Assembly (NCBI GenBank): GCA_010093515.1
Contig: MU001675.1
Span: 3,032 to 67,031, forward strand
From: Lineolata rhizophorae
Lineage: Eukaryota > Ascomycota > Dothideomycetes > Lineolatales > Lineolataceae
Length of the DNA stretch: 64,000 nt
Direction: 5' to 3'
Shown: one piece after another, positions 42,531-48,212 of the stretch
Position numbering within the stretch: position 1 is the first letter of the stretch
How the letters are laid out: the number at the start of each line of letters is the position of its first letter
Notes under the pieces: model-generated
Seen by the model: only the letters and a program-made list of their open reading frames with translations
The model's database searches: none
What the model was told of the DNA's origin: nothing
Program-made: the position numbers and the translations under genes

Positions 42531-43554
42531 TCAAACGCCAGCAACCTCCGGAGGCACGTTCAGGTTCCAATCGATCTCCGCATCCTTACCATACCGCTTG
42601 ACAAGCCATTCGTTGGTCTTCTTAAAGTGTCCGCAATCCATCTAAGGCACTCGCGGTCAGTGAATTGCAGTCATAAGCTAGAAGGAGTTCAGCTTACAAA
42701 TCCCTTGTGCGCACTCAGCGGGCTAGGGTGCACGCTCTTCAAAACCAGATGCTTCTCCGTGTCCACTTTCTGAACCCTCTTCTGGGCCGGGGATCCCCAG
42801 GCCAAGAACACGACGCCGTTAGTGCGCACCTTAGTGACAATCTCAATCACCTTTTGAGTGAACCGCTCCCAGCCGCGATTCGCGTGGCTGTTCGACGACC
42901 CCCTCTCCACAGTCAAACACGTGTTCAGGAGCAGCACGCCGCGGTCGGCCCATGGCGTAAGGAGGCCGCCCTGCTTGGGAGGAGGCTGAAACGACGGGTA
43001 GTCCTTGGAGAGCGCTTTGTAGATGTTCTGGAGCGAGGGAGGAGCGGGGGTCGGAGGCCGGACAGAGAAGCACATCCCATGAGCCTGGTTGGGGTTGATG
43101 TAGGGGTCCTGGCCGATGACGACGACCTTAACGGTATTGAGGGGTGTATGGCGGGACCTAGAAAGTAGTCCCGGTGAGCAGGAAGCTCGACAAAAAGAAT
43201 CGAGACAGTCTGAGTCGGAGCTTACCAGCTGTATACGTCCGGCAAGGGGGGGTAGATGGTCTTGCGGGCATCCTTCTCCTTCTTTATGAATCGTTTCAGG
43301 TCGAGAAACTCGGGAGTCAGCATTTCCTCTTTCAAGTGCTTGAACCAGCTCTCGTGGAGCGTGTCGATTTCAAGCTTCAGCAAGTCCTTCTGCTCGTCGG
43401 TGAGCTTGGAAACCCAGGCATTCTTGTCAAACGGGACGGACGGCTTGGCAGAAGCCTTTGGGGCGCCAAAGAAAGACGTGATGCTCCCATTGCTCTTGGA
43501 CTTTTTCGAGTCGGCCGTGGCGAGCGAGTCGGTCGACTTGCGCTTGAGGGACAT
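42531..43554 (-). CDS. UNG1: Uracil-DNA glycosylase (family 1 UNG)
   Basis: Removes uracil from DNA as the first step of base excision repair. Exons on the minus strand are 43554-43226, 43157-42698 and 42641-42531, giving 299 residues from [10 protein letters not shown]. The water-activating motif is GQDPY (residues 125-129; catalytic Asp127) and the minor-groove intercalation motif [11 protein letters not shown] ends exon 2 (253-263). [13 protein letters not shown] and [11 protein letters not shown] are core strands. Residues 1-45 are basic and include a [11 protein letters not shown] element like the RPA/PCNA-binding tail of other UNGs. An in-frame ATG at 43791 would add 79 residues with the character of a mitochondrial presequence, so two isoforms are possible. 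Confidence 0.95.
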
Positions 43555-44282
43555 GGTGCGAGTGAAGCGTCTCAAAATGAGATTGGACGGATAGATTGCG
43601 AATACTCTGGAATGAATTGAGGTTGAGTGTTTTCTTTCCGACCAGGTGGACTTGGGACGGCAGAATTGAGGACGTGACGGGATTGAAGGGGAGCGGAGGC
43701 TGATAAGGGAGCAGGCAGAAACGCGGTTCGGTGACGTTGGACGCGACGCGTCTATCACGTGTGCGAGTCGCGCTCCGGTCGCGAGACGCATGACTCGGGT
43801 ACCCGAACCCCTTTCCCCAGCCTCACAACGTCTCTACCTACGTTAGGGTTAGCCACATAGCGGCGGGGAACACGCTCCCGGTCCTTCCGATGCGGCCGTT
43901 GTGCCCTGTTGCGACCCATGGTGGCGTGGCGGGCCGAGAGTGCTAGCGAGATGTCCAGCTCCCGCTTGGCTTGGCGTCTTGGGGATGCCTGCCTACAAAG
44001 TCGACGCCAAGCCGACCGGGGACGTTTTCTCGCCAATGGGTTCGCTCGTGATGCTGCAGGGTCCATGCAGCTCTGGGTACCATGGGACTGCAGTCTGTCT
44101 AATTGCCAGAACTGGCACTCGCGGTTCCTCAACCGCGGTCCTGGGTCCCAGCTGGCCAGCTGTCTCCTCGTTCGAGAAGGCTCTATAAACACGTGTCGGG
44201 CATCCTCTCTGCCTCACGATGCCTCCTCTGCAAAATTATCTATTGCATCCAGCTTAGCTCTGGTATTCAGCGTCTTACTGGG
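43555..44282. other. Shared upstream region of UNG1 and HOP2
   Basis: 728 bp between two divergent starts. It includes the possible 79-codon N-terminal extension of UNG1 (43555-43791). No other gene is seen. Confidence 0.55.
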
Positions 44283-45412
44283 ATGGCACCCCGCAAGGAG
44301 AAAGCAGAAAAGGTCACGGCTGATGAAGGTGGAGGCTTCCATACCAATCACTGCCTTCCGTCACACATCGCTGACCATCAATCCAGCTGTTGATACAATT
44401 CTCAGCTACTTGCGTGCGCCTGCCAACTAGACTTGACCTATAACCTTCTCTGACTATAGCTCCTTTTAGGCCAGCAAAAGTCAGTGCCAAATTTGATTCT
44501 CGACTTGCCTGTACAAGGTCACATTTTGCAGTGCTCACATAACCATTCCCGGGTCCAGTCGTCCATATTCGGTTCGTTGACTAGTCCACATGGCATTTCA
44601 TACCGCTAATTGCAGGCAGGCGATCGACATATCTGCCAATCTACACAATAAAGTTACCAAAGGTCCATCTAAAAGCAAAAGGAAAAGGTACCCTCAACCT
44701 AGCTGATGCTCTGTTTAGCTGCTGCCACCAAAATCTTGAAAGACCTACATGAGAAGCAAGAAATCGAAGGACGGGCTGCGGGTTAGTTTGCTCCAAGAGG
44801 AGACAGCACTGGATCGTCTTTGGATACTTACTTCACCCAGGCAAGCAGATTGTCTACCATGCCAAGCAAGTGAGTCCCTCCCATTTTTGCTCAATTCTAC
44901 GTTACAGTAAACGAGATCCATGCCCTGACGCTGCTCAACTTAGGACCCCTCGGAAACTGCCTCTTCAGAGGAATTAGCCTCCCTAGCCTCCCGGATTAAA
45001 GAACTCCAAACTGAAACAGCCGCCTTCAAGGCCGAGGAGAAGACCCTCCGCACTTCCCTCACTGCCACCAACGCCACGCTCCCAACATGCGACCTGCGTG
45101 CCGCTGTCGCAAGCTGCGAGACCGAGATGCAGGATTTGTCGTCCCGTCTAACTTCTATACGGTCCGGAACTATCAGACCAGTGAGTGCCAAGGAAAAGAA
45201 CGGTGTCGAGGCGGAAGTCCGAAAGTGGGAGGGGATCGAGAAGAGAAGGAAGAGGATCAGCGATGAGTTGTGGGGTTTGATTGCGGAGAATGTGCCGGAG
45301 GGAACAGAGACGAAGGAGCTGAGGGTACGTGCGGGAGAAATCGATTTATCCTTTGTCTCAAGAGTATGCTCAATGCTAATGTATGCAGGAACAACTCGGG
45401 CTCGACGAGTGA
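44283..45412 (+). CDS. HOP2: Meiotic homologous-pairing protein Hop2 (TBPIP)
   Basis: Hop2 partners with Mnd1 to stimulate Dmc1/Rad51 strand invasion in meiosis. Nine exons can be placed: 44283-44328, 44387-44413, 44470-44479, 44559-44571, 44620-44662, 44719-44781, 44841-44869, 44944-45324 and 45389-45412; together 211 residues. Exons 3 and 4 are only 10 and 13 nt. With them the winged-helix start reads ILSYLRQQNRPYSAIDISAN, the family pattern; without them it cannot be made. The winged helix continues with NKVTKAAATKILKDL and GKQIVYHAKQD. A coiled coil follows in exon 8 (EELASLASRIKELQTE and onward), then KEKNGVEAEVRKWEGIEKRRKRI and the ELWGLI C-terminal segment. Donors are GTGGAG, GTGCGC, GTCAGT, GTTCGT, GTCCAT, GTTAGT, GTGAGT and GTACGT, several of them weak. 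Frame is kept through all eight joins. Confidence 0.88.
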
Positions 45413-45776: not shown

Positions 45777-48212
45777 CTAATCCCATACTCCCCATTTTCC
45801 AACTTCCTTCATTGCCTCCGGCCCACCCTCAGCCAGCCGCTCATCTCCTAAAGCACCAGCCACACACTTCCACCCATCCCTTGCGCCACCCCATCTCAGC
45901 ACTTCCTGTTTGAACTTCTCCCCCGCCGCTCGATCTACCGCTCCGCCTTCCGTCCGCTGGAACACGTCCTTCCACATTTTACCAGCAATAGCCCGGTCAA
46001 ACAAGTACGAGTAGTACGTAGCTCCGTAGCCGTATAAGTGACCAAAGTATCCCTGCCAGCTGGTCCCCGCCGGCTCCGGCACAGACGAATACGCGTTCTT
46101 GATCTCGTGGTACGTCCCGGTGCTGTCGAATCCCGGCTCGAGCGGCAGGCGCGAGTGGTACGCCTGGTCGAGGAACGAGATAACGATCTGCGCCTCGGTG
46201 TCGACGGCCTGCATGCGGTGCTGCATGGCGACGCGCTCACGCACGAGGCGCAGCGGCAGCGGCGCGTCTGTCTCCCAGTGGCGCGCGTACAGGGCCAGCG
46301 CCTCCGGTGCCGACGCGAAGTGCTCCATCAGCACCGAGGGCAGCTCCGCGAAGTCGGTCGCGCACCGCGTCCCCGACACGTTTTGCAACCGCGTCCGGCC
46401 CAGCATGCTGTGCACAGCGTGGCCCATCTCGTGGAAGAGCGTCTCGACTTCGCGGAAAGTGAGCAGCGCCGGCGGCTTCTTCCGGCCACCGGATAGGTTA
46501 CTACCGTTGGCTGAGTGTTGCGAGAAGTTGCAGATGAGCGCTATGGTTGGTAGCTGGTAAACCGTTCCCGTCGCGCGGTCCACGGCAAAGGCCATGCCAT
46601 CTGTGGCCGCTAGCGTCGGGTCCTCGGAGAATGGATGGGCTGTTGCCGTGGCGGCCTCCGCGATCTCGTCCTCCGGTATCTCCCGCGAGCAACGCAAGGT
46701 GAAGTGCGCCGGGTTCGCCGCCTTCCCAGGTCTCGAGAAGAGATCGCAGTAGACGACGGCGATGCGACCCTCGTTTTCATCGACGACATCAAGCCGCCGC
46801 ACGTCGTCGTTCCACGTCTCACCTGGAAGGGTCTCTCGGGGAACGAGGCGAATGCCGTAGAGGCGGTGAAAGAGCCGGGAGAGGCCTTGCATGACCGTCC
46901 CGACGGAGAAGAAGGATGAAATGTAGTCGGGGCCGCTCGTACGCGATTGCATGCTAAAGAGGAGTTTAGAAATGTAGTAGTCTTTGTCCCAAGCCGTGAG
47001 TTGGTTGGGGAAGTTGCCAAATCGTGCATCGCCCTTCTTGAGCTCCAATAGGTCGTTCATCTCGTCATGGACTTGCACGTGGTTGTTTGAGATGAGGGCT
47101 TCCAAGAATTCGTGAACTGCTTCCGGAGAGCCAGCCATCTTATCTGACAGTGCCATATGCGCGTACGTTTCAAATCCAGTTTTCTGGGCCAATTCCGCTC
47201 TTTTCTTGAGCAACCTTTCCAAAAGGCCAATACTCTTTTTTGAGGATTTCCGACTGGCAATGTAAATCTCTCGCCTTACATCCGGGTCTTCCACTGACCT
47301 CAATGCCACATTCGACAAGTAGCCGACAGTAGGCAGATTTACCATTCCCCATCTTGTCAGCTGCTTGATCAACATGGGATCCATGCCTTTGAGCTTGCTG
47401 CTCTTGTACACCAGATAGGGGGTTTCCGGTTCACCAGCTTCAGCGAACTCTGATCCAACAGTCGCAATCTCATTGGTGAGCTCCACGAAGCTGTCGCGCT
47501 CCCCGTCTTGAAAGTCAATCGCTGACTTGGAAAAGTCCTTCAGTAATATTCCCGCCACAGTCCGCTCTTCCTCGGTCCACGAACGGACCAGGTCCGGCGA
47601 GTCGTTCGCCTCAATCAACTTCTTATACAACTCCTCGCTGGAGTTGAGCACATTCATGTACTCAAATACCATAGCATAGCACTTGGTGGCCGCATCCTGG
47701 ATGTTTAGGTCGGGATGCGTCGCCCTTACAAAGTCCGACAGGTCGATTGCCCTGCACAGCAGATCGCTGATTCGATCCAAGTCGCGCGGGATGCTGCGCA
47801 TCTCGTCCAACGAGCTCGCCGCCAGCACCTTCGCCAGAACCGTCCTGCACTTGTGTATCGTTACCGTGGCGAAGTCCTGGAAGCCCGCCGGGTGGGTAAG
47901 GTAGCGATTCTGGAACAGTCCTGCGGGCTTGCCGGACAGGGCGTTCGCCTTCGCATCGCGGGAGAAGTCGCGCCAGAAGTCCGCCGAGTCGAACACCTGG
48001 CGCAAAGTGCGGTCATCGTGGGTGACGGACGGCGAGGAGAGGTCTGCCGGGACGTGGACGCCGCTGCTATCGCGGGCTAGGCGCTGTTGGTGGGCAGCGG
48101 ACGGGGAGGCGGCCGAGGCAAAGGCTCGACGCGGCGCGTGGAGCTGCTGCCGCCGGAGATGAGAACATCGCGCGCAGGTCCAGGGCTGTCGTGCCCATAG
48201 GCGCTTGAGCAT
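45777..48212 (-). CDS. OCT1: Mitochondrial intermediate peptidase Oct1
   Basis: Matrix metallopeptidase of the M3 (thimet) family that removes an octapeptide from imported precursors after the main processing peptidase. Single exon, 811 residues. The N-terminus is a presequence (MLKRLWARQPWTCARCSHLRR). The zinc site is FHEMGHAVHSM near residue 594, with the third ligand Glu in the following helix (FAELPSVLMEHF). LPTIALICNF and GYGATYYSYLFDRAIA are family signatures. Length equals that of other fungal Oct1 proteins, and no intron is needed. Confidence 0.96.
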   Translation of the reverse strand: MLKRLWARQPWTCARCSHLRRQQLHAPRRAFASAASPSAAHQQRLARDSSGVHVPADLSSPSVTHDDRTLRQVFDSADFWRDFSRDAKANALSGKPAGLFQNRYLTHPAGFQDFATVTIHKCRTVLAKVLAASSLDEMRSIPRDLDRISDLLCRAIDLSDFVRATHPDLNIQDAATKCYAMVFEYMNVLNSSEELYKKLIEANDSPDLVRSWTEEERTVAGILLKDFSKSAIDFQDGERDSFVELTNEIATVGSEFAEAGEPETPYLVYKSSKLKGMDPMLIKQLTRWGMVNLPTVGYLSNVALRSVEDPDVRREIYIASRKSSKKSIGLLERLLKKRAELAQKTGFETYAHMALSDKMAGSPEAVHEFLEALISNNHVQVHDEMNDLLELKKGDARFGNFPNQLTAWDKDYYISKLLFSMQSRTSGPDYISSFFSVGTVMQGLSRLFHRLYGIRLVPRETLPGETWNDDVRRLDVVDENEGRIAVVYCDLFSRPGKAANPAHFTLRCSREIPEDEIAEAATATAHPFSEDPTLAATDGMAFAVDRATGTVYQLPTIALICNFSQHSANGSNLSGGRKKPPALLTFREVETLFHEMGHAVHSMLGRTRLQNVSGTRCATDFAELPSVLMEHFASAPEALALYARHWETDAPLPLRLVRERVAMQHRMQAVDTEAQIVISFLDQAYHSRLPLEPGFDSTGTYHEIKNAYSSVPEPAGTSWQGYFGHLYGYGATYYSYLFDRAIAGKMWKDVFQRTEGGAVDRAAGEKFKQEVLRWGGARDGWKCVAGALGDERLAEGGPEAMKEVGKWGVWD

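Follow-up and report, generated by a model that had tools for sequence, protein, structure and literature searches.

Very short internal exons have been described in fungi and in plants. In the filamentous fungus Trichoderma, a 20-nt exon that had been missed in annotation was found in the gene Xlr2, and the accessible part of that report, dated 2024, calls functional microexons previously undescribed in filamentous fungi (PMC11121469). An exon of 1 nt was reported for the CYP621A gene of Fusarium, where it is supported, according to the accessible text, by 20 Fusarium orthologues and by 18 reads of transcripts from two species (PMC12940212). For ten plant species, 2,398 micro-exons of not more than 15 nt were found by RNA-seq, and the excerpt of this study states that such exons are often misannotated or missed (PMC8831610). 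HOP2 itself is known from Saccharomyces cerevisiae, where the gene, which is orthologous by name, depends on splicing for its expression, its splicing being regulated and its 5' splice site poor, whereby the accessible parts of the two reports mention no micro-exon (PMC3226532, PMC4607428). Because HOP2 is absent from the nine two-intron genes of S. cerevisiae in the accessible part of PMC3226532, and a further intron, located over the stop codon, is described in PMC4607428, the yeast gene appears to have far fewer introns than the gene described here. Among the literature matches listed, there was no report of a micro-exon in HOP2, which is no proof of absence.

Here, we analysed a stretch of 64,000 nt from the presumably filamentous fungus Lineolata rhizophorae (the window), in which a HOP2 gene was modelled by hand at 44283-45412 on the plus strand and spliced by script. 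The model consists of nine exons and eight GT-AG introns of 48-79 nt each. It comprises 636 coding nt including the stop codon, translates into 211 aa, and is open throughout. The coding exon lengths are 46, 27, 10, 13, 43, 63, 29, 381, and 24 nt, with 4 of the 7 internal exons (27, 10, 13, and 29 nt) not exceeding 30 nt. Exon 1 (44283-44328, 46 nt) provides the start codon and encodes MAPRKEKAEKVTADE plus 1 nt, whereby the spliced frame remains open over 211 codons. It is followed by intron 1 (44329-44386, 58 nt), which has an average donor GTGGAG and a CTGAC 11 nt before the AG, and by exon 2 (44387-44413, 27 nt, AVDTILSYL). Intron 2 (44414-44469, 56 nt, donor GTGCGC, CTGAC 15 nt before the AG) leads to the first micro-exon, exon 3 (44470-44479, 10 nt, GCCAGCAAAA), which holds the end of R25, Q26, Q27, and the start of N28. 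The second micro-exon, exon 4 (44559-44571, 13 nt, TCGTCCATATTCG), holds the end of N28 together with R29, P30, Y31, and S32 and is separated from the first one by intron 3 (44480-44558, 79 nt), which has the donor GTCAGT, a CTCAC and an ATAAC before the AG, and an alternative acceptor whose AG ends at 44531 and whose use would keep the frame. Downstream of intron 4 (44572-44619, 48 nt, donor GTTCGT, CTAAT 9 nt before the AG) lie exon 5 (44620-44662, 43 nt, AIDISANLHNKVTK), exon 6 (44719-44781, 63 nt), exon 7 (44841-44869, 29 nt, KQIVYHAKQ), which ends the winged helix, exon 8 (44944-45324, 381 nt), which follows it, and the coding part of exon 9 (45389-45412, 24 nt, EQLGLDE and the stop codon). 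All of these features are on the plus strand. An earlier note on this DNA had placed two consecutive micro-exons at 44470-44479 and 44559-44571 within the interval 44414-44619, each flanked by AG and GT and joined in frame across four exons. Our model arrives at exactly these positions, with intron 2 starting at 44414 and intron 4 ending at 44619. Both micro-exons are bounded by AG upstream and GT downstream, introns 2, 3, and 4 have the phases 1, 2, and 0, respectively, and splicing of exons 2-5 yields YLRQQNRPYSAID in frame.

Since fungal (Xlr2, CYP621A) and plant micro-exons have already been published, as far as the accessible texts go, the HOP2 case joins a known class. As in Xlr2, the exons are internal, lie within a DNA-binding domain, are flanked by canonical introns, and have lengths that are not a multiple of three. 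Xlr2, however, has one such exon, the glucose-regulated inclusion of which was demonstrated by RNA-seq, whereas the two adjacent HOP2 exons of 10 and 13 nt are predicted from the sequence (comparison with the excerpt of PMC11121469). With the exon of Fusarium CYP621A they share the location of an ultra-short exon within a conserved motif and its deduction via homology and phase; the 1-nt exon is backed by reads and orthologues, while the HOP2 exons rest on frame and homology. The plant micro-exons are of the same size class as those of HOP2. The claim that internal exons this short are rare in fungi agrees with the wording of PMC11121469, although an even smaller exon, of 1 nt, has been published in PMC12940212, both as judged from the accessible text.

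That the gene is Hop2 had also been proposed, and several lines of evidence bear this out, namely the profile match, the structure match, the best-aligning exon chain, and the shuffle control (see below). The spliced protein matched PF07106 (TBPIP/Hop2 winged helix) with 63.1 bits (E 2.2e-17, cut-off 22.8), whereby the alignment spans residues 15-75 of the protein and positions 1-61 of 62 of the profile. The sole PDB match at E <= 0.001 was 2mh2, a HOP2 winged helix (phmmer E 1.9e-9), which we take to be that of mouse HOP2 (database title "Homologous-pairing protein 2 homolog"). The 15 remaining PDB matches up to E 1 were apolipoprotein E chains with E >= 0.16, aligned over the helical part. 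The segment YLQEQNRPYSAQD of 2mh2 aligns without gaps to the spliced product of exons 2-5, so also across the joints between these exons. Exons 3 and 4 encode most of RQQNRPYS, of which QNRPYS is identical in the mouse protein. This homology test is based on a single sequence, from mouse, and on a single Pfam model. When seven residues were artificially deleted in frame, the PF07106 score was 34.3 bits, a value that serves for comparison only and does not represent the product of any exon skip.

The gene reads as an open HOP2, the product of which is predicted to pair with MND1 and to assist DMC1 during meiotic recombination. MND1 is present in the genome, where PF03962 detected it in a six-frame search, and it scored 82.5 bits, which is over the cut-off. 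DMC1 is present as well, with a partial protein of 289 aa that scored 474.3 bits with TIGR02238 against an equivalog cut-off of 447.7, and the RAD51 model gave 376.8 bits on the same protein, below its own cut-off of 478.05. Thus, HOP2, MND1, and DMC1 all occur in the genome, in which no second HOP2 copy was seen.

AG and GT dinucleotides are abundant in the micro-exon region, and 32 in-frame GT-AG chains with introns of 40-130 nt connect exon 2 with exon 5 within the 206-nt interval, so that one might suspect chance splice sites inside an intron of a decayed gene. However, the claimed local chain scored 37 against the mouse residues QEQNRPYS, and the next of the 32 chains reached 21. Of 4000 dinucleotide-preserving shuffles, in which the outer GT and AG were kept and peptides longer than 20 aa were dropped, none attained a score of 37, the best shuffled chain scoring 14. 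A scorable chain was absent in 213 of the shuffles, and in the other 3787 the best chain had a mean score of -6.0 (sd 5.4). Moreover, the entire 636-nt frame is open, the encoded residues match those of mouse, and the MND1 frame is open, as is that of DMC1 over the modelled part, which argues against gene decay. We therefore consider a chance origin of the micro-exon chain hardly credible. A further enumeration started at the ATG, ran through exon 5, and covered GT-AG introns of 40-130 nt and chains of at most seven exons. It yielded 1995 open chains from the ATG, 650 of them in frame with exon 5. The claimed chain aligned best of the 650 to the mouse HOP2 fragment, with a score of 74 against 69 for the runner-up, which contains both micro-exons as well and departs from it in exons 1-2 alone. 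Other exon chains within these limits were rejected on this basis. Altogether, we put the probability that the predicted gene model with both micro-exons is correct at roughly 0.88.

One variant of this model, which relies on the acceptor TTTTGCAG at 44531, was absent from the earlier reading. If this site were used, always or in a minor isoform, exon 4 would be extended in frame by 27 nt (44532-44558, plus strand) to 40 nt (44532-44571), which would place nine extra residues within NRPYS. The 40-nt exon is free of stop codons and shrinks intron 3 to 52 nt, near the size of the other introns; its acceptor scores 2.6 compared to 2.2 for the chosen one, and it ranks second among the 32 local chains. 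The PF07106 score falls from 63.1 to 48.1 bits with the insertion, although it is still over the cut-off. Furthermore, mouse HOP2 (2mh2) has no insertion at this position, and the AG at 44531 is preceded by neither CTNAY nor NTRAY, whereas the 13-nt version has both. Taken together, we regard the 40-nt version as quite unlikely and keep the 13-nt exon 4.

CTRAY is the branch-point form of fungi. This motif is present in 6 of the 8 HOP2 introns and NTRAY in 7 of 8, compared to a background of 25% for the latter. CTNAY, a form of CTRAY that was loosened after the introns had been inspected, was detected 4-30 nt before the AG in all eight introns (actual distances 8-20 nt) but before only 11% of the 4198 AGs of the window. 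Splice-site strength was scored with crude models that had been trained on 12 predicted introns, ten from DMC1 and one each from MND1 and the presumed RAD51. Among 3484 GTs, introns 2, 3, and 4 have donors at the 87th, 91st, and 97th percentile, respectively, and within 44387-44662 only four GTs score above 2, these three donors among them; the donor of intron 1 was average (51st percentile). The acceptor model did not distinguish used from unused AGs and lends no support to the HOP2 model. For introns 3 and 4, the acceptor ranked at the 54th and 37th percentile, respectively, and that of intron 8 was poor (10th percentile), its exon being otherwise secured by the frame. Within 44387-44662, 12 of the 15 AGs with a score above 0 outscore the exon 4 acceptor, including the one at 44531 and several within introns 2-4. 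The AG at 44615 scores 3.7 compared to 1.2 for the chosen exon 5 acceptor, which is four bases away, and its use would shift the frame.

Neither 10 nor 13 nt, nor their sum of 23 nt, is a multiple of three, which means that the micro-exons are not frame-neutral cassettes. Skipping of exon 3 leads to a stop at codon 50, skipping of exon 4 to one at codon 49, and skipping of both to one at codon 35. Because the frame is broken in each case, exons 3 and 4 are obligate. A true structure that lacks one or both micro-exons was rejected on the grounds of frame and homology. Retention of intron 2 leads to a stop at codon 30, that of intron 3 to one at codon 69, and that of intron 4 to one at codon 35. 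When exon 2 is skipped, the frame is kept and nine residues are lost, and retention of the last intron gave no stop within the translated stretch. With any skip of exons 3 or 4 and any retention of introns 2-4 ending in a stop by codon 69, it might be that splicing acts as a gate, such that outside meiosis the micro-exons are skipped or introns retained, the frameshifted RNA is degraded, and correct splicing is specific to meiosis. Such a gate would be compatible with the exon structure preferred here. In S. cerevisiae, unspliced HOP2 RNA builds up outside meiosis and the 5' splice site of the gene is among the three poorest, as stated in the accessible part of PMC3226532. This regulation makes a gate conceivable in the present gene but is not evidence for it. 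A frameshift upon mis-splicing would be expected of any exon with a length that is not a multiple of three, and introns 2-4 do not have weak donors, so that we consider a splicing gate unlikely. Equally doubtful is an elaboration in which vegetative HOP2 RNA would become translatable only once both exons are included in a meiotic splicing state, the acceptor at 44531 would give rise to an isoform with nine additional residues, and the intron-dense DMC1 with its predicted 23-nt exon would be controlled likewise.

For the preferred structure with two constitutive micro-exons, ordinary splicing is the most likely mechanism. Three closely packed spliceosomal introns of 56, 79, and 48 nt would leave the exons of 10 and 13 nt between them. 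Most likely, each short intron is recognised as a unit, with U1 at the donor and the branch point and acceptor only a few dozen nt away. The introns would be removed independently and probably sequentially, so that a tiny exon never needs binding across itself, and such a stepwise removal would avoid factor crowding around the 10-nt exon. Inclusion of both micro-exons would be required, since the conserved QQNRPYS, which lies early in the winged helix, is encoded by them and the frame is broken if either is left out. We infer the use of these sites by the spliceosome, intron definition, constitutive splicing, and the order of removal, while exon chain, frame, homology, donors, and branch-like motifs of HOP2 were computed here. 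In contrast to exon definition, pairing of splice sites across short introns does not require that the exon itself be recognised as a unit. The earlier remark, which places such exons at the limit of what intron definition can manage, is thus probably to be reversed, because introns of 48-79 nt are short enough for pairing across the intron. The limit for tiny exons would rather stem, probably, from exon definition or from factors that crowd at both sides of the exon. A study of splice-site pairing by intron definition in S. pombe is cited, in the accessible part of PMC11121469, for fungal micro-exons that have been tested. A search for introner-like copies of 44414-44619 in the genome matched only the interval itself (E <= 10; one candidate scored, common words skipped) and lends no support to an introner origin of the intron cluster. 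For a comparison of intron positions, pattern matches were obtained from a prokaryotic (80) and a viral (11) collection; none of them was a relative, and these collections say little on fungi.

The intron structure of other meiotic genes was deduced from the genome sequence. DMC1, which is located on the minus strand at 2911-1196 of L005 (G000:C28), was spliced by hand, with the gene ends left out, into at least 11 predicted exons. These include a predicted micro-exon of 23 nt at 1444-1422 (EFNICVLM) and one exon of 37 nt. MND1 (L002, G000:C20), likewise spliced by hand, has one predicted intron of 63 nt at 1396-1461 right after the ATG, so that the coding part of its predicted first exon is only the start codon and the remaining frame is a single exon. 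The match of PF08423 to the presumed RAD51 gene (C3) consists of two long pieces, whereby this gene was told from DMC1 only by reading its sequence. Intron density is high in two of the three meiotic genes looked at, and a sample of four genes does not suffice for a general claim. In the vicinity of HOP2, the divergent neighbour at 42689-43791 on the minus strand carries GQDPY and HPSP motifs, the first one reading GQDPYI. By these motifs it looks like a uracil-DNA glycosylase, the usual form presumably being GQDPYH. The first reading frame of this gene, which is not the one that bears the motifs, had no Pfam match. On the other side, the intron-dense HOP2 is adjoined by a peptidase family M3 gene (PF01432) at 45780-48212 on the minus strand, the 811 codons of which form a single frame free of interruptions. 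A partial DDE-type transposase (PF03184) is located close to the window's left edge, at 117-992 on the plus strand.

The earlier note expected automatic gene finders to probably miss or truncate this gene. In order to see how far the gene can be found by homology, the genome was searched directly. When PF07106 was run against all six frames of the entire genome (E <= 0.001), it gave no match; the same was true for 14 control genomes, so that this search had no positive control. A comparable six-frame search with PF03962 found MND1 at once, its domain being encoded in one exon. With the HOP2 protein as the query of a translated search (E <= 1), two matches were obtained, one to exon 6 (residues 45-69) and one to exon 8 (residues 76-208), whereas nothing was detected upstream of exon 6.

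Since the six-frame profile search gave no match, the statement "HOP2 absent" in a survey of fungal genomes may stand for a HOP2 that was overlooked. Among the papers found, and as far as their accessible text goes, only few micro-exons are documented for filamentous fungi. Adjacent exons of 10 and 13 nt in the conserved DNA-binding domain of a meiotic protein would provide a test case for annotation, and the HOP2 micro-exons would likewise serve as a test case for the smallest exon that a spliceosome working on short introns can manage.
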